64,000 nucleotides of DNA from Microvirga brassicacearum (GTDB taxonomy: Bacteria > Pseudomonadota > Alphaproteobacteria > Rhizobiales > Beijerinckiaceae). The position numbers and the translations under genes were made by a program. Shown here in pieces: positions 32,546 to 40,743 of this stretch (position 1 is its first letter; each line of letters begins with the position of its first letter). The notes beneath the pieces were generated by a model. The model had not been told where the DNA came from. It did not search any database and saw nothing but the letters and a program-made list of their open reading frames with translations. The stretch spans positions 1 to 64,000 of the forward strand of contig NZ_VCMV01000007.1 in the NCBI RefSeq assembly GCF_008757455.1. Direction: 5' to 3'.

Positions 32546-33723
32546 GGTTTCACGAAGAGCTGGCGCGGAACGTTCGACAGGCACTCGACGCCCTTGTCGG
32601 TGATGACGATGCTCTCGGTGATCTCGAGACCCATATTCTCGAGCCAAAGCCCCGTCATGAAATGGAACGTCATGCCCGGCTGGAGCTCGGTCTTGTCGCC
32701 GGGACGCAGGCTCATGGTGCGCTCGCCCCAATCCGGCGGATAGCTGAGGCCGATGGGATAGCCGGTGCGGTTGTCCTTGACGATGCCGTAGCGCTTGAGG
32801 ACGGTGAAGAACGCGTTGGCGATGTCCTCGCAGGCATTGCCGGGTTTCGCTGCCGCAAGTCCTTCCTCCATGCCTTCGAGCACGGCTTTCTCGGCATCGA
32901 GAAAGGCTTGTGTCGGCTTGCCGAGAAAGACGGTGCGCGACAGCGGGCAGTGATAGCGCTTGTAGCAGCCGGCGATCTCGAAGAAAGTGCCTTCGCCGCT
33001 GCGCATGGGACGATCGTCCCAGGTCAGGTGCGGCGCGGACGCTTCCTCGCCCGAAGGCAGGAGCGGCACGATGGCGGCGTAATCGCCACCATAGCCGTCG
33101 ACGCCGCGCAGGCCCGCATCGTAGATCTCGGCCACGAGATCGCATTTGCGCATGCCGGGTTCGACCTTTTCGACGATGCGCCGGTGCATCGCCTCGACAA
33201 TGCGGCCGGCCTTCTTCATGTAGCCGATCTCGGTCGCGCTCTTGACGGCGCGCTGCCAGTTCACCAGCGACAACGCGTCCTTGAATTTGGCATTCGGCAG
33301 GTTCTTGGTCAGCGACATGTAGGCGGCGGCGGAGAAATAGTAATTGTCCATCTCGACAGCGATGGTGCCCTTGTCCCAGCCGCGTTCCGCGATGATGCCG
33401 GACAGGAAATCCATCGGGTGGCGCTCAGTAGATTGAACGTAATGGTCGGGATAGCCGATAATGTTGTGGTGGGCGAGATAGGCGGTGCGCTTCGCGCCGT
33501 TGGCGTCCTGCCCGCGGCCGTACCAGATCGGGTCCCCATGAGGAGGCACCAGCACGCATTGATGGACGTAGAACGACCAGCCGTCATAGCCCGTGAGCCA
33601 GTGCATGTTGGACGGATCGGTGACGATCAGGAGATCGGTCCCGGACTTGTCCATGGCCTTGCGGGTCTTCGCAAGGCGCTCGGCATATTCGGCTCTGGTA
33701 AAATTGAGGTTGGGCGCGCTCAC
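32542..33723 (-). CDS. doeA: ectoine hydrolase DoeA (EutD)
   Basis: The product has 393 residues from a GTG start (SAPNLNFTRAEYAERLAKTR). It has a creatinase-like N-terminal domain (DLLIVTDPSNMHWLTGYDGW) and a pita-bread M24 C-terminal domain with FFEIAGCYKRYHCPLSRTVF and GLSYPPDWGERTMSL, the text seen in ectoine hydrolases. DoeA hydrolyses the ectoine ring to N-acetyl-diaminobutyrate. GGAGG lies 7 nt before GTG, and GTGA overlaps the eutC stop by 4 nt. Several canonical M24 metal ligands are changed, as is usual in this subfamily. Confidence 0.93.
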   Translation of the reverse strand: MSAPNLNFTRAEYAERLAKTRKAMDKSGTDLLIVTDPSNMHWLTGYDGWSFYVHQCVLVPPHGDPIWYGRGQDANGAKRTAYLAHHNIIGYPDHYVQSTERHPMDFLSGIIAERGWDKGTIAVEMDNYYFSAAAYMSLTKNLPNAKFKDALSLVNWQRAVKSATEIGYMKKAGRIVEAMHRRIVEKVEPGMRKCDLVAEIYDAGLRGVDGYGGDYAAIVPLLPSGEEASAPHLTWDDRPMRSGEGTFFEIAGCYKRYHCPLSRTVFLGKPTQAFLDAEKAVLEGMEEGLAAAKPGNACEDIANAFFTVLKRYGIVKDNRTGYPIGLSYPPDWGERTMSLRPGDKTELQPGMTFHFMTGLWLENMGLEITESIVITDKGVECLSNVPRQLFVKP

Positions 33724-34733
33724 GGGGTTCCTCCGGCTGATTCTTGCGTGTCGATGGCTCTGCCCGCGCCGGCATTGGCGGCGCGGGCGTGAGCAAGGGT
33801 GGCGATGGCGGTATCCTGCACGCCGGTTCCGGTGAGGTCGCACAGGGTGATGGTGTCGGGGCTTTCCCGTCCCGGCGCTTGTCCGGCGATCACCTGTCCC
33901 AGTTCGGCGAACGACCGATCGGGTGCGATCAGGCCGGCGCGGATCGCGTGGTGGAGTTCGCCGAGACGCCGCGTCTGCGCCAGGCTGTCGGCGAAGTAGG
34001 AAACGCGCGCGAGGACGGCAGGCTCGATCTCGTTCTTGTGCTCGGAATCCGAGCCCATGGCCGTGATGTGCTGGCCCGGGCGCAGCCATTCGGCTTTCAA
34101 GATCGGCTGCTCGGCCGGGGTCGTGGTGACGATGATTTGCGCGCCGTCGCAGGCGGCCTCGGGCGTGGACGCGGCCTCGACCGTGATGCGAAGCGAATGC
34201 GCCATCTCTCGCGCCGCCGCCTCGGCCTTCGCAGGCTCGCGCGCCCAGATCCGCGCACGGGTGATCGGCCGCACCAGTGTGAGTGCTTCAAGCTGCAGCC
34301 GTGCCTGGATGCCGGCGCCAAGGATCGCGGCGGTGTGTGCGTCGGGCCTTGCCAGGTGCTTCGCCGCGACGGCGCCCGCGGCAGCCGTGCGCACATCGGT
34401 GAGATAGCCGTTATCGAGCAGCAAGGCCTCCACGAGGCCGGTCCTGGTGCTGAGCAGGATCATCAGACCGTTGAGGCTCGGCAGGCCCAGCTTGGGGTTA
34501 TCGAAGAAACCGGGGCTGACCTTGATGGCAAAACCATCGAGGCCGGGCACATAGGCGGTCTTCACATCCACCTCGCCGCGATGCTCAGCAATGTCGAGCC
34601 GCAGGATCGGCGGCATCACCACGGCCTTGGTGGCGAGAGCCGCAAACGCGTTCTCCACACAGGCGACCACGCTCGCATCGAGCCGCACGACATTGCGAAG
34701 ATCGGGTTCGGTGAGCACGAGCATCCGGGCCAT
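33720..34733 (-). CDS. eutC: ectoine utilization protein EutC (ornithine cyclodeaminase family)
   Basis: The product has 337 residues of the ornithine cyclodeaminase/mu-crystallin family, a Rossmann-fold NAD(H) enzyme. Visible are VKTAYVPGLDGFAIKVSPGF, the nucleotide-binding AAILGAGIQARLQLEAL, TTTPAEQPILKAEWL and ITAMGSDSEHKNEIEP. In ectoine gene clusters EutA, EutB and EutC are linked to converting 5-hydroxyectoine to ectoine. Its ATG overlaps the eutB stop by one base. The precise reaction is not settled by sequence. Confidence 0.9.
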   Translation of the reverse strand: MARMLVLTEPDLRNVVRLDASVVACVENAFAALATKAVVMPPILRLDIAEHRGEVDVKTAYVPGLDGFAIKVSPGFFDNPKLGLPSLNGLMILLSTRTGLVEALLLDNGYLTDVRTAAAGAVAAKHLARPDAHTAAILGAGIQARLQLEALTLVRPITRARIWAREPAKAEAAAREMAHSLRITVEAASTPEAACDGAQIIVTTTPAEQPILKAEWLRPGQHITAMGSDSEHKNEIEPAVLARVSYFADSLAQTRRLGELHHAIRAGLIAPDRSFAELGQVIAGQAPGRESPDTITLCDLTGTGVQDTAIATLAHARAANAGAGRAIDTQESAGGTP

Positions 34734-35737
34734 CAGCCGCGCCCTCCGGCGGATATCGCTCTATCCGGAGTTCCATCGACGATCCGACGATGCTGTGCTT
34801 CATCGATGTTGCGGCCCGAAACCACGATGACGGTGGGCCCGCGCGTCTCGACCTTGTTCGCCAGAAGCGCCGCGATGCCGACCGCTCCTGCGCCTTCAAC
34901 CGTTTCGTCCTCCACCGAGAAAGCATGGCGGATTCCGTGCGCGATCTCCTCCTCCGACAAAAGCACCACGCCATCGAGCAGGTCGCGGCACATGGCAAAG
35001 GTGTATTGGTTGGCCAACCCGATGCCGCCGCCAAGCGAATCGGCCAGCGTTTCCAGTTCTTCGACGAGAACGGGTTTTCCCGCGCGCAGGCTTTCGTCCA
35101 TCGCCGCGCCGCGCGCCATGGAGACGCCGATCACGCGGGCTCCGGGAAGTTTGCTCTTGATCGCTGCGGCGACGCCGGATGCGAGCCCGCCGCCGGAAAG
35201 CGGAACGAGAATGAGTTCAGCATCGGGGCGATCCTCGGCGATTTCCAGACCGAGCGTCCCCTGTCCGGCGATGATGGCCGCATGATCGAATGGCGGAACG
35301 GCGATGAGGCCTTCCTCACGCACCAGACGCTCGACTTCATCCTGCGCATCGTCCTGCGAGCGCCCGACAATGCGCACCTCCGCGCCGAGAGCGCGCACGG
35401 CCTCAACCTTGTTGGCGGGAACGAGAGCCGACATGCAGATAACCGCCCGCACACCTTCGACCTTGGCAGCGTGGGCGAGGGCGCGGCCATGATTGCCGGT
35501 GGATGCGGTGACAAGGCCGTGCCGACGCGCTTCGCTATCCAGCGACAGAACGGCGTTGGTCGCGCCGCGCAGCTTGAAGCTGCCGGTTGTTTGGTGGTTT
35601 TCCAGCTTGAGAAAAACCGGAGTGCCGCAGCGCGTGGACAGGCTGGCGGAAGGAATGAGAGGCGTGCGCTGAATGCTGCTGGCGATGCGCTCTTGGGCCT
35701 GCCGGATATCGTCGAGCCCGATTGCAGCCCTCATCAC
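34733..35737 (-). CDS. eutB: ectoine utilization protein EutB (threonine dehydratase-like)
   Basis: The product has 334 residues, a fold-type II PLP enzyme. The PLP lysine is in TTGSFKLRGATNAVL, the phosphate-binding loop in PLSGGGLASGVAAAI, and ASTGNHGRALAHAA is the asparagine loop. It resembles threonine/serine dehydratases; in this cluster it is probably the hydroxyectoine-specific EutB. It is the first catabolic gene after enuR, across a 205-nt gap with a palindromic operator candidate. No eutA precedes it. Confidence 0.9.
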   Translation of the reverse strand: MMRAAIGLDDIRQAQERIASSIQRTPLIPSASLSTRCGTPVFLKLENHQTTGSFKLRGATNAVLSLDSEARRHGLVTASTGNHGRALAHAAKVEGVRAVICMSALVPANKVEAVRALGAEVRIVGRSQDDAQDEVERLVREEGLIAVPPFDHAAIIAGQGTLGLEIAEDRPDAELILVPLSGGGLASGVAAAIKSKLPGARVIGVSMARGAAMDESLRAGKPVLVEELETLADSLGGGIGLANQYTFAMCRDLLDGVVLLSEEEIAHGIRHAFSVEDETVEGAGAVGIAALLANKVETRGPTVIVVSGRNIDEAQHRRIVDGTPDRAISAGGRG

Positions 35738-35779
35738 AGGGAGCCTGCCGAGCGAACCGCATCAAGGATGTTCCGGCTC

Positions 35780-35792
35780 CGGCCGAGGCCAG
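35780..35792. repeat. intergenic 13-mer, copy 2
   Basis: CGGCCGAGGCCAG lies 43 nt upstream of the eutB start, identical to the copy upstream of the dehydrogenase gene (28332) and to one upstream of tolC (55231). Confidence 0.4.
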
Positions 35793-35897
35793 CGCCCAAC
35801 GCGTCTGCGTGAGCCGCATTGGGAGAAATCGTTCCTGCTGGCCTGGAATGCATCGGTCACCTCGCTCAGGACAAAGCGATCGTGTAATGCACCAAAA

Positions 35898-35925
35898 TTC
35901 ATGTCAATAATTATATTGTCATGAA
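35898..35925. promoter_or_regulatory. 28-bp imperfect palindrome ahead of eutB
   Basis: TTCATG-T-CAAT (35898-35908) and ATTG-T-CATGAA (35915-35925) are mirror arms; 11 of 14 base pairs match. It lies in AT-rich DNA within an otherwise GC-rich spacer, 161 nt upstream of eutB and 18 nt after the enuR stop. It is the best candidate operator for EnuR or the Lrp-type regulator. Confidence 0.5.
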
Positions 35926-35942
35926 ACAATCCGCAACTCGGC

Positions 35943-37403
35943 TCAGGCGATCGAACTCACGTCAAAGACCGGTGGCAATTGCTCGAAGGTTCGCCGCACG
36001 ATCTGCAGCGCATCACTCAGAGCCGCATGCGAGAGCCGGCCTCCCAGGCAGATGCGAATGCCGCCCTCGCAGCTTCCGCCAGCCATGAAGGGATCGGAGG
36101 GCGTGACGGCGATCCGGCTTTGCGCGAGCGCCCGCACGAGGCCATCTTCGGTCCAGCGCGGCGGCACTTTCAGCCATGCGCACAGGGAGAGCGGGTGGGT
36201 CTGGGCGATGTGATCGCTCAAGCTCTCAGTCACGATCGCTTGACGCGCCCGCGCTTCCCGGCGCTGCACGTCGATCAGGTTGCGAGCGGTGCCGTCCTCG
36301 ACCCAGCGTGTGGCAATCTCGGCCGGAAGGTTGGTGGCGCTCCAGGTCGTCACACGCATGATGCTGGCGACGCGGATGCCGTATTGCGGTGGCACGACCA
36401 GATAGCCGACTCGCAGGCCGGTCATGACGGATTTGGTGAAGCTCGTGACGAAGAAGCCGAGATCGGGCAGGAGTTCGGTGATCGATGGAAGCGCCGCATC
36501 CAGCAACGGCTTGTAGACTTCATCCTCCACCACGAACACACCGTAACGGCGCGCCACGTCGGCGATGGCTCGCCGCCTTTCGGCGCCCATCACGTGGCTC
36601 GTCGGGTTGCCCAGCGTAGGCACGAGCACCAGCGCCGTCACGCCGCCGCCCGCGCAGGCATCCGCGAAGGCCTCCACCAACACGCCTTCGCGATCGGTCG
36701 GCAGCCCGCGCAGGCTGAATCCCAGCACGTTCGCGAGGCCGATGATGCCGTGATCCGTCAGGCTCTCAGTCAGAACGATGTCGCCGGGCTGGACGACGGC
36801 GGCGACCGCCAGAAACAGGCCATGGGCCGCCCCGTTGGTGATGAGGATGCGATCCTTCTCGGCATCGACGCCCAGACCCTTGAGCCAGCCCTGTGCGGCC
36901 GCGCGATGCCGATCGAGGCCGGCGATCGGCCGGCATGGGCGCATGAAAGTGCTGTTGTCGAGTTCTGCGAGATCCGCCATGACGGCGCGGGATGCGCGTT
37001 CGTGCGCCTCGGTATAGACGGCCCGGACGATGGACAGATCCATCGCCTCGCCTGGGTTCCGGTCGAGCATGAAACGGTCGGCCTTCTCGGTGACGCGGCT
37101 GCGCACGAAAGTGCCGCGGCCAACCTCGCCACGCAGGTAGCCCCGCCGTTCCGCCTCCTTGTAGCTCAGGCTGACGGTCTGCACGGACACGCCCATGCGG
37201 CGCGCAAGGTCCCGATGGGTCGGCATCTGCGCCAGGGCCGGCAGGATGGCTGCGTCGATGTCCGCGATGATCCGCTCCGCCAATAGCTTGTGTTTGGTCG
37301 CTCCCCGGCGCTTGGCGAGCGTCGGGCGCCACGTGGCAAGATCCGATGCGTCTTGGACGGGGCTCGGGGCGAGGTCATTCGGGGGAGAAACTTGTTCACG
37401 CAT
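35943..37403 (-). CDS. enuR: MocR/GabR-type regulator EnuR of ectoine catabolism
   Basis: The product has 486 residues. An N-terminal GntR winged helix (MPTHRDLARRMGVSVQTVSL, then GEVGRGTFVRSRV) is fused to a class I aminotransferase-like domain with the PLP lysine in TSFTKSVMTGLRVGYL. EnuR proteins repress ectoine import and breakdown genes until PLP-bound lysine captures a diaminobutyrate derivative made by DoeA. The position at the head of the ectoine operon supports this. It is divergent from an AsnC/Lrp gene across about 60 nt. Confidence 0.9.
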   Translation of the reverse strand: MREQVSPPNDLAPSPVQDASDLATWRPTLAKRRGATKHKLLAERIIADIDAAILPALAQMPTHRDLARRMGVSVQTVSLSYKEAERRGYLRGEVGRGTFVRSRVTEKADRFMLDRNPGEAMDLSIVRAVYTEAHERASRAVMADLAELDNSTFMRPCRPIAGLDRHRAAAQGWLKGLGVDAEKDRILITNGAAHGLFLAVAAVVQPGDIVLTESLTDHGIIGLANVLGFSLRGLPTDREGVLVEAFADACAGGGVTALVLVPTLGNPTSHVMGAERRRAIADVARRYGVFVVEDEVYKPLLDAALPSITELLPDLGFFVTSFTKSVMTGLRVGYLVVPPQYGIRVASIMRVTTWSATNLPAEIATRWVEDGTARNLIDVQRREARARQAIVTESLSDHIAQTHPLSLCAWLKVPPRWTEDGLVRALAQSRIAVTPSDPFMAGGSCEGGIRICLGGRLSHAALSDALQIVRRTFEQLPPVFDVSSIA

Positions 37404-37465
37404 GGGATTGTCTCGAAGGAATGTCCTGAGATATTCATTACATTGGAATGGGGTGCTGGATAGCC

Positions 37466-37930
37466 ATGAAGCTCGATAAAATCGATTTGAAAATTCTAGC
37501 AGCTCTCCAGATCGACGGTCGGATGACCAAGCTGAGACTTGCGGAGGCCGTCAATCTGTCCCCGACCGCCTGCTGGGAACGTCTGAGCCGGCTGGAGAAA
37601 AGCGGTGTCATCACCGGCTATACCGCGCGCATCAACCCGGAGAAGTTTGGGCGGCGCACGACGGTTCTCGTCGAGATCATGCTCAAGAGCCACCAGCAGG
37701 CGGATTTTCAGCGCTTCGAGACCGCCATCATGAAGGAGCCCAGCATCATTTCGTGCGACGCGACCGGCGGCGGGGTCGATTATATTCTCAAAGTCGCCGC
37801 CGATGATATCGACGCCTATCAGCGGCTGATCGACCGGCTCCTGACGCAGGAACTCGGGATCGATCGGTATTTCACCTACATCGTCACGAAGAGCGTGAAG
37901 GCCAGCGACCTTACGGCGCCGTCCCTGTAG
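37466..37930 (+). CDS. Lrp/AsnC-family regulator (AsnC/DoeX-like)
   Basis: The product has 154 residues from [20 protein letters not shown], the standard Lrp N-terminus; an ATG six codons earlier is the alternative. The helix-turn-helix ([20 protein letters not shown]) is followed by an RAM ligand domain ([20 protein letters not shown]). Ectoine degradation clusters often carry such a gene (asnC/doeX) beside enuR. It is divergent from enuR and likely tunes the cluster in response to an amino acid. Confidence 0.87.
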
Positions 37931-38102: not shown

Positions 38103-40679
38103 ATGCGACCGAACCACCAGCCAGCGCCTTGCCCGCAGACCAGCCCGGATTCGCGTCCGACCGAGCCGAAGCTGCCCTATGCTGGCGGTCCGTCCGCGGG
38201 CGGCATTCAGGAAGCAGCGGCCCGCGCGTGGAAAACGCCCTGGTCGGAAGCGGGACTTCCCGAGCCGGGCTGGTGGAAGGCATTCGCGGTCGACAAAAAC
38301 GTCAGATCGACCCGAACACCGCGTCGGGTCGCGCCTGATCAGGCCACGATCGCCGCCAAGGCATCGGCCATCGTGGAGGCTGTCACCAAGACATTGGAGC
38401 CCCGGCCGATCCGCGAAGAAGCAGCGCTCCTTGCGGAAAGAGCCGAGGAAAATGCGGTGCGGAGCCGCATCGCGGATTTGCACAGCGCCTTCCGGCCCGA
38501 AGCTTCAAGGCAGGGCGAAGAGGGGGCTGACACGGCGGGCGACGGTCAACGTCTGGACGCACGGATCAAAGCCCTGCAGGACGCCGCCCGCGTGGATCGC
38601 GAGCCGCCGATCGAGAACGAGCCGCTCCTGACCCGGTCGCGCGGTGGTGCTGTGCGCCGGCAAGTCGTCACGACGGTCGACCAAGGCGAGGTAGCTGAGG
38701 CGACCGCCTCTTTCGGCTGGATGGAGCACACCTACGCGGTCAAAATCCTCTCGTTGAACGGGTCGTATGACTTCTCGGTGAGTCCCGCGGCCGAAAGTTT
38801 CGAGATGGCCAGCACCGCTGAAGCGGGCGCGGCTCATAGCACCATGAATGCGGAATATGTTTCCGGGTCGGCGCTGCCCCCAGTGCTTGTCGATGAGACG
38901 GCCCCGCAAAGTGAAAGCACGTTTGTCGAAGCTCCCGCGAATTCTCCCGAAGTCGATGCCGACTTTCTGTGGCTCTACGACAACCGGACGCCTGCCCGCG
39001 CGGTGAGCCCCGCACCCGAGCCGGAGACCGACGAACCCGTCATCCGCGTCCCGGAAATTACCATGAGAGAGGTTGTGGTTCGCGCGGAAGTCCCGGTTGT
39101 GCGGCCGTCGACGCAACTCGTCCCCTTCGTGCGCCACGAGACGACAGGCGAGGGGGTTTACGAGTTGCCGGACCTCGCCTACCTCGCAGAGGCCCCGAAA
39201 ACCGAAGGCCCGGTTCTGACCGAAGATATCCTCGAGGAATCCGCTGGCCATCTGGAAAAGGTCATTCGCGATTTCGGCGTCAAGGGCGAGATCATTCATG
39301 TCCGTCCGGGGCCGGTCGTGACTCTCTACGAATTCGAGCCCGCGCCTGGAACCAAATCGGCGCGTGTCGTCGCGCTCGCCGACGATATCGCCCGCTCGAT
39401 GAGTGCCGTCTCGGCGCGCGTCGCGGTCATTCCGGGCCGCAACGCCATCGGCATCGAGTTGCCGAACGAGACGCGCGACACGGTGTATCTGCGCGAGCAG
39501 CTGGAAAGCGACGATTTCAAAGCCTCGCGGCAGAAACTCCCGCTGTGCCTCGGCAAGACCATCGGCGGCGAACCGGTGATCGCCGACCTCGCCCGCATGC
39601 CGCACCTGCTTGTCGCCGGCACCACCGGCTCGGGCAAGTCGGTCGCCATCAATACCATGATCCTGTCGCTGCTTTACCGTTTCACGCCGGAGCAGTGCCG
39701 CCTGATCATGGTCGATCCCAAGATGCTCGAATTGTCGGTCTATGACGGCATTCCGCATCTGCTGACGCCCGTCGTTACCGACCCCAAGAAGGCGATCATC
39801 GCACTGCGCTGGGCGGTGCGCGAGATGGAGGATCGCTACAAGAAGATGTCGAAGCTCGGCGTGCGCAACATCGACGGCTTCAACGTGCGCGTGTCCGAAG
39901 CGAAGGCCAAGGGCGAAGTCATCACCCGCACGGTCCAGACCGGGTTCGAGAAGGAGACCGGCCAGGCGGTGTACGAGGACGAGATCATGGATCTCGAGCC
40001 GCTGCCTTACATCGTCGTGATCGTCGACGAGATGGCCGACCTGATGATGGTCGCCGGCAAGGAGATCGAGGGCGCGATCCAGCGTCTGGCGCAGATGGCG
40101 CGCGCGGCCGGCATCCACGTGGTGCTGGCGACCCAGCGCCCGTCGGTCGACGTGATCACCGGCACCATCAAGGCGAATTTCCCAACCCGGATCTCGTTCC
40201 AGGTCACCTCCAAGATCGACAGCCGCACCATCCTCGGCGAGATGGGCGCCGAACAGCTTTTGGGCCAGGGCGACATGCTCTACATGGCGGGCGGCGGCCG
40301 CATCACCCGCGTGCACGGCCCGTTCTGCTCCGACGAGGAGGTCGAGAAGGTGGTGGCGCATTTGAAGCGGCAGGCCAAACCGGTTTATGTCGAGGCAGTC
40401 ACGGCGGATGACGAGGAAGAACTCGACGCCGAAGAGAGCCCGGTTTTCGACGAAGGTGATTTCGGACTTGGCGCCGGCGATCTCTACGATCAGGCCGTGG
40501 CGGTCGTTCTCCGGCACAAGAAGGCCTCGACCTCCTACATCCAGCGCCGCCTGCAGATCGGCTATAACCGCGCCGCGTCGATCATGGAGCGCATGGAAAA
40601 GGAGGGCGTCGTCGGCCCAGCCAACCATGCCGGCAAACGGGAGATCCTGATCGAGCTGGACAGCCGGGCGTTCGATTGA
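38103..40679 (+). CDS. ftsK: FtsK/SpoIIIE-type DNA translocase without membrane domain
   Basis: The product has 858 residues. Residues 1 to about 370 are Pro/Ala/Glu-rich, low in complexity and hydrophilic, with no membrane spans. The motor starts near 380 ([20 protein letters not shown]): Walker A GTTGSGKS at 506-513, Walker [13 protein letters not shown] near 640, then [17 protein letters not shown]-terminal gamma winged helix ([20 protein letters not shown]) would read KOPS DNA motifs. The motor should pump chromosomal DNA, as FtsK does at division with XerCD. Lack of the four N-terminal spans is unusual for a sole FtsK, so a second, membrane-bound copy elsewhere is likely. A TTG start 12 codons upstream is possible. 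Confidence 0.9.
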
Positions 40680-40709: not shown

Positions 40710-40743
40710 CTGATGCGGAGGAGCGATCGCTCCTCCGCATCAG
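40710..40743. terminator. 34-bp perfect palindrome between ftsK and the HPF gene
   Basis: CTGATGCGGAGGAGCGA is followed at once by its exact reverse complement. It sits between two convergent stops, 31 nt after ftsK and 15 nt after the HPF-like gene. As RNA it forms a long stem on either strand, so a bidirectional terminator is likely. No T-tract is present. Confidence 0.65.

Follow-up and report, generated by a model that had tools for sequence, protein, structure and literature searches.

Does the short palindrome between enuR and eutB in Microvirga brassicacearum act as the operator of the ectoine catabolic operon, and is the palindrome itself the unit that a regulator would recognize? The window that we analyzed is a 64,000-nucleotide stretch of this genome, and a first-pass annotation made from its letters had proposed that an imperfect palindrome at 35898-35925 is such an operator, bound by EnuR or by an Lrp-type protein encoded nearby. 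The palindrome was found exactly as claimed: the 28 bases are TTCATGTCAATAATTATATTGTCATGAA and form 11 of 14 possible pairs with their reverse complement; the three mismatches are one T/T pair between the arms and both pairs at the centre. Between the dyad and the enuR stop codon are 17 bp (the gene ends at 35943), and eutB lies downstream of the dyad. The AT-rich island said to lie between the end of enuR and eutB was also there, with G+C falling to 46-49% around the dyad as against 55% and 62% in the neighbouring 100-base windows.

The frequency of such dyads was estimated by counting 28-mers in which 11 or more of the 14 pairs match, both in the whole window and in ten dinucleotide-preserving shuffles of it. 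The window contained 13 and the shuffles 5-10, suggesting that the dyad by itself is not very unusual for 64 kb. When smaller regions were shuffled, such a dyad arose in 43 of 4,000 shuffles of the 211-bp enuR-eutB interval and in 6 of 4,000 shuffles of the 56-bp AT-rich island. The reality of the element rests more on its conservation, described below, which is the stronger evidence, than on these palindrome statistics. Elsewhere in the window, a perfect 28-bp palindrome, ATGCGGAGGAGCGATCGCTCCTCCGCAT, was seen at 40713-40740, 34 bp past a long plus-strand ORF that ends at 40679.

The identities of the surrounding genes were established with NCBIfam families at their curated cut-offs, and the scan left out ehuC and ehuD. 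The MocR-type regulator gene enuR (also ehuR; 35943-37403, minus strand) matched NF052286 EhuR with 602 bits (cut-off 480), eutB (34733-35734, minus strand), the first gene of a presumed operon, matched TIGR02991 with 531 bits (cut-off 413), and eutC (33720-34733, minus strand) matched TIGR02992 with 561 bits (cut-off 472). The eutB start codon is the ATG at 35734, and the ORF list begins at a GTG at 35737. DoeA (EutD, ectoine hydrolase), DoeB (EutE), EhuB and EhuA were likewise above their cut-offs, so that all seven names given in the first-pass annotation were borne out. The succinate-semialdehyde dehydrogenase and the Lrp-type protein matched their families below cut-off; for the latter, encoded by an asnC-like gene divergent from enuR (37448-37930, plus strand), the best match was Lrp with 124 bits against a cut-off of 233. 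EnuR-type and EhuR-type proteins are handled as one clade in PMC8739950. A lysine of EnuR, K324, was invariant in 10 aligned sequences and, by analogy with Lys302 of the Ruegeria pomeroyi protein, would be the lysine that holds PLP. The same genome encodes a second EhuR-family protein (G000:C64:21921-23276) that scores 430 bits, below the family cut-off.

We aligned the enuR-eutB intervals of 17 Microvirga loci on the hexamer TTGACA. A 32-bp block, ATTGTTTCATGACAATATAATTATTGACATGA (35899-35930, minus strand), was conserved in all 17, showing that the arms of the palindrome are kept in relatives. Of its positions 25 were invariant, five agreed in 16 of 17 loci and two inner ones were free (9 and 8 of 17), giving the minus-strand consensus 5'-ATTGTTTCATGACAATATAAnnATTGACATGA-3'. 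None of the 22 positions immediately upstream agreed in more than nine of the 17 loci. The borders drawn around the palindrome were therefore off, since the conserved element spans 35899-35930 and takes in an additional box, ATTGT, towards enuR.

EnuR orthologues (E at most 1e-150) were present in 17 of 48 Microvirga genomes. When all 48 were searched for the block with up to 3 mismatches, it was found exactly once per genome in 18, namely the 17 with EnuR/EhuR and one more, G031; at this threshold it was found in none of the remaining 30, and the reversed pattern, used as a control, gave zero matches. In G031 (locus L147), eutB and the block are accompanied by no more of enuR than its last 86 residues. 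When translated in all three frames, the 120 bases before residue 401, which reach to the end of the stored stretch, gave nothing of the EnuR sequence expected there, and we therefore classed this enuR as a remnant; the gene may be broken there, or the assembly may be chimeric. A chance dyad in AT-rich DNA, for which the count of 13 against 5-10 could be cited, is hardly credible for an element conserved in 17 of 17 Microvirga loci and co-occurring with enuR, and this conservation led us to reject it.

We then asked which part of the block is constant beyond the genus. The comparison used the best 80 of 416 candidate loci (at least 63% identity) which, being the best of the candidates, are near relatives; 67 of these named loci have eutB adjoining enuR. 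They include Microvirga, Labrys, Ancylobacter, Bosea, Agrobacterium, Rhizobium and others. The 13 Microvirga strains among the 67 overlap with the 17-locus set, and the window itself, whose nearest named loci are from Microvirga, is outside the 67. Three boxes stood out on the minus strand. Box 1, ATTGT (35926-35930), lies outside the palindrome; it was present in 17 of 17 Microvirga loci and, as ATTG followed by A, T or G, in 63 of the 67. Box 2, ACAAT (35915-35919), an inverted half-site, was found in 17 of 17 and 63 of 67 loci. Box 3, ATTGACATGA (35899-35908), includes TTGACA (35902-35907), the predicted -35 hexamer; it was exact in 16 of 17 and 63 of 67, and its ATTGAC was kept in all 67. 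The boxes start 11 and 22 bp apart and alternate in direction, as ATTGT>, <ACAAT and ATTGA>CATGA. This three-box pattern scored 15 of 15 positions in the window and was reached by 0 of 60 shuffles, the pattern having been derived from these loci.

The exceptions were few. In Chelatococcus (three loci), box 2 is missing, ATTGTAATGA and ATTGACATGA form direct repeats 22 bp apart, and the dyad falls to 5 of 14 pairs. Box 1 is degenerate in Labrys (three loci). A 1-bp insertion shifts the element in L114, which was scored as a miss, and the element of L088 is complete. Pairing in the dyad was uneven across the 67 loci, with 11 of 14 pairs in seven, 10 in 15, 9 in 38, 8 in three and 4-5 in four. 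Taken together, these alignments suggest that what is kept across most lineages examined is three ATTG-type boxes, rather than a 28-bp palindrome.

The boxes also connect the site with a known motif. The EutR/EnuR consensus of Suvorova and Rodionov (2016), as quoted in PMC8739950, is ATTGTnnnnnnACAAT, and the window carries an exact match to it, ATTGTTTCATGACAAT, at 35915-35930 on the minus strand. Two exact copies of the consensus occur in the 5.2-Mb genome; the 3-kb stretch around the second encodes none of the window's 11 ectoine-cluster proteins. The published palindrome corresponds to boxes 1 and 2 and the 28-bp dyad to boxes 2 and 3 plus the inner flank of each, so that the two are mutually offset and have box 2 in common.

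The remaining 13 named loci, a Rhizobium tropici-like group, separate the element from enuR. Within the stretches fetched around their enuR genes, eutB was absent, and the block was found in 0 of 13 even when 9 mismatches of 30 were allowed. Six of these genomes were searched further, and five of them have eutB, away from enuR. Upstream of eutB in all five, we found the block with all 20 scored positions and its three boxes intact. The presence of the block before eutB where enuR is elsewhere suggests that the element belongs with the eut promoter. The spacer between boxes 1 and 2 is AATGAA in this group, as compared with TTCATG in Microvirga, and because of this replacement only 6-7 of the 14 dyad pairs are left in the five loci.

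These results bear on whether the inverted repeat TTCATGnCAAT alone is the whole operator, occupied by one dimer, with box 1 incidental. The dyad does hold 10-11 of 14 pairs in the 13 named Microvirga loci. The same arrangement is also found upstream of a MocR gene whose product is 38% identical to EnuR (L017), where CATGTCAAT-N6-ATTGTCATG has the half-sites and spacing of the dyad; that gene lies beside an ORF that we named, by eye, a luciferase-like monooxygenase. However, all 17 Microvirga loci have an identical box 1, which the dyad leaves out and without which the published consensus would be incomplete. The five eutB loci of the R. tropici-like group, in turn, have lost much of the dyad with all three boxes intact. 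We therefore regard an operator made of the dyad alone as unlikely. The first-pass proposal can accordingly be divided: its function for the site, as an operator of the ectoine operon, gains from the perfect published consensus found there, whereas the 28-bp outline does not stand as the recognized unit, because its outer arms are lost in the R. tropici-like and Chelatococcus loci and the ATTGACATGA box stays.

The position of an AT-rich palindrome 17 bp behind enuR might also suggest a bidirectional terminator, or a structure at the 3' end of the enuR mRNA, instead of an operator. A scan of 35700-36000 for a G+C-rich hairpin followed by a T run found none. Moreover, the distance from the enuR stop codon to TTGACA varies from 30 to 142 bp across Microvirga, and in the R. 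tropici-like group the block is missing around enuR and present before eutB. A terminator is thus very improbable, and we rejected it for want of a terminator-like hairpin in that scan and because the block precedes eutB where enuR is elsewhere.

If the element belongs with the eut promoter, where might that promoter be? Box 3 contains TTGACA, and the hexamer CACGAT (35879-35884, minus strand) follows 17 bp after it as the predicted -10, a weak consensus match. In the CAC(C/G)AT-like hexamers of the 17 Microvirga loci, the C, A, C and final T are invariant. A sigma-70 consensus scan reported no promoter. Because box 3 contains TTGACA with a conserved hexamer 17 bp on, bound EnuR would cover the predicted eutB -35. 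An alternative -10 inside the block (TATAAT) was rejected, as its last base is free (T in 9 of 17 Microvirga loci) and the DNA upstream of the block is unconserved.

Two further features of the flanking DNA were observed. Downstream, a 39-codon ORF (35734-35853, minus strand) with a GAGG stretch resembling a ribosome site begins 46 nt past the operator block, and its stop codon overlaps the eutB ATG (TGATG). With start codons chosen by hand, 16 of 17 Microvirga leaders contain an ORF of 23-42 codons, in nine lengths, that ends on the eutB start (ATGA or TGATG). The peptide is poorly conserved and has no codon-position G+C bias (0.64/0.64/0.62, pooled over 17); the ORF is perhaps a translational-coupling leader. 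On the other side of enuR, in the enuR-asnC interval (37404-37450), GAGACAAT stands just before the enuR start and is kept in 16 of 17 Microvirga loci. The best three-box match at the enuR start of the window was 11 of 15, a score reached by 3 of 60 shuffles. ATTGT-N6-TCAAT was seen near the enuR start in the three Chelatococcus and three R. tropici-like loci inspected. It is possible that EnuR regulates its own gene through a site at the enuR start.

We also considered whether the divergently encoded Lrp/AsnC-type protein binds the site, alone or with EnuR. PMC5924519 reports that AsnC is an activator of the operon in R. pomeroyi and that the regulatory region of Halomonas elongata is bound by DoeX, and 77 of the 80 stretches fetched for the named loci contain an asnC-like gene (27-87% identity). 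However, L085, L096 and L111, whose fetched stretches contain no asnC-like gene, keep all 20 scored positions, and one Microvirga genome, G008, keeps asnC and ssd without the element. A search of G008 at E 1e-60 gave no EnuR, its 6-kb stretch contained nothing matching eut or ehu genes, and the element was not found in this genome. In that stretch (L189, G008:C51:8000-14000), ssd and an ORF that we named, by eye, aminotransferase-like come straight after asnC, as a deletion of the cluster between asnC and ssd would leave them. Since the eut operon is also gone from this stretch, G008 does not discriminate firmly against the Lrp/AsnC-type protein. Nothing in these comparisons speaks for binding by that protein, and a role for it at the site seems quite improbable.

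From the conserved block, the co-occurrence with enuR within the genus, the place before eutB, the consensus match and the gene identities, all of which were observed directly, we propose that the palindrome is the inner part of a predicted EnuR (EhuR) operator of the ectoine catabolic operon that overlaps the predicted eutB -35, a reading to which we assign a probability of roughly 0.87. The function assigned in the first-pass annotation is thus probably right, with the outline of the site corrected. The most likely role of the site, by analogy with studied systems, would be to keep the eut-ehu genes, presumably a single operon, repressed when ectoine breakdown products are absent. The three half-sites, 11 bp or about one helical turn apart and alternating in direction, with the third holding the TTGACA of the predicted eutB promoter, would be occupied by one EnuR dimer, or two, and RNA polymerase would be excluded. 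A breakdown product of ectoine (alpha-ADABA or DABA) would then react with the PLP of EnuR and release the repressor from the DNA, so that transcription of eutB and the genes that follow could begin. The inducer and the repressor mode in this scheme come from work on R. pomeroyi and Sinorhizobium meliloti. The R. pomeroyi EnuR is described in PMC8739950 as a PLP-containing repressor that is relieved by alpha-ADABA and DABA, and its Kd for a 48-bp promoter fragment is given there as about 2 micromolar.

A more elaborate version of the EnuR operator can be suggested, tentatively and as something we would not expect to hold. The three half-sites amount to two overlapping palindromes (boxes 1-2 and boxes 2-3) and a direct repeat (boxes 1-3), and the extended half-site, the stronger one, appears to flip by lineage: Microvirga has the spacer TTCATG, the R. 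tropici-like group has AATGAA, and Chelatococcus has a direct ATTGTAATGA and no middle box. Box 1, box 3 and the promoter position would be the constant elements, and EnuR might regrip different pairs according to its PLP or inducer state, as switching of pairs with ligand state has been proposed for PdxR (PMC5320631). If this were true, the operator would switch geometry, and not occupancy alone.

How far does the three-box layout extend beyond near relatives? We examined 26 EhuR-family loci from across the class (250 bases behind the gene and 210 around its start; L167, L168 and L170 excluded). Behind the gene, a strong three-box match (13-15 of 15, 0 of 60 shuffles) was seen in the six loci that score highest for the family and in one of the other 20, and L155, L159, L160 and L181 also scored 12-13 of 15 upstream of the gene (0 of 60 shuffles); with more than 70 stretches and only 60 shuffles each, single results of 0 of 60 are weak. 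Two loci with distant EnuR proteins (L015 and L018, 37-39% identity) share with S. meliloti direct repeats of ATTGTCATGA and ATTGACATGA 23 bp apart, and box 2 is absent in all three. For the EnuR-like locus of Klebsiella, no three-box match of at least 11 of 15 was found in either interval. These loci, together with Chelatococcus, which also lacks box 2, show that the three-box layout is not universal. The Klebsiella locus (L186) is on a Klebsiella variicola plasmid, NZ_CP078147.1 (IncFIB), with the EnuR-like gene accompanied by ehuABCD, doeA and doeB, and 27 Klebsiella plasmid records match the EnuR of the window. In four distant proteins, the DNA-reading head is more conserved (28-34 of 66 residues) than the rest (129-135 of 364-373).

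Our literature search for Microvirga together with ectoine and eutB found no paper. The comparison of loci made here shows what is constant, namely three boxes at 11-bp intervals over the predicted -35, and supplies natural variants with a half-site flipped or missing, through which the contribution of each box can be tested. Which of the predicted EnuR sites of R. pomeroyi matters is left open in section 11 of PMC8739950. Otherwise, this would be an ordinary operator of a catabolic operon.

The closest relation is to the EutR/EnuR operator ATTGTnnnnnnACAAT, with which the site shares sequence, spacing, the genes downstream and the family of the adjoining regulator. It differs in a third conserved half-site, ATTGACATGA, 6 bp further on, whereas the published motif is described, in the part of the literature that we drew on, as a palindrome. 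The uehABC-usp-eutABCDE promoter of R. pomeroyi DSS-3 (PMC8739950) occupies the same place, from the 3' end of enuR to the operon, and there, as judged from its description only, two close sites overlap the promoter -35 and -10, much as the Microvirga boxes would with the predicted eutB promoter; in Microvirga, the right half of a second site (the CAAT side) is absent. Leisingera carries ATTGT-N6-ACAAT-N6-ATTGACATGCAGTACAAT in this same place, which fits the description of the two adjacent R. pomeroyi promoter sites. It was found by eye and then confirmed, the automatic score having missed it because the site begins within the enuR stop codon, on the final base of the latter. The enuR-ehuA region of S. 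meliloti (L184) has the ATTGTCATGA and ATTGACATGA boxes before its ectoine operon in common with our site, but they are direct repeats with no inverted middle box, and ehuA, not eutB, follows enuR. Finally, three-box motifs of the > < > type are listed for the MocR family in 33 regulogs and 85 regulons (Table 2 of PMC5320631), and alternating half-sites at helical-turn spacing are common to these and to the Microvirga site, although EutR is described in the same source as palindromic, not three-box. This kind of operator is thus already known, and the exact three-part layout, with a half-site flipped between lineages, is a modest refinement of it.
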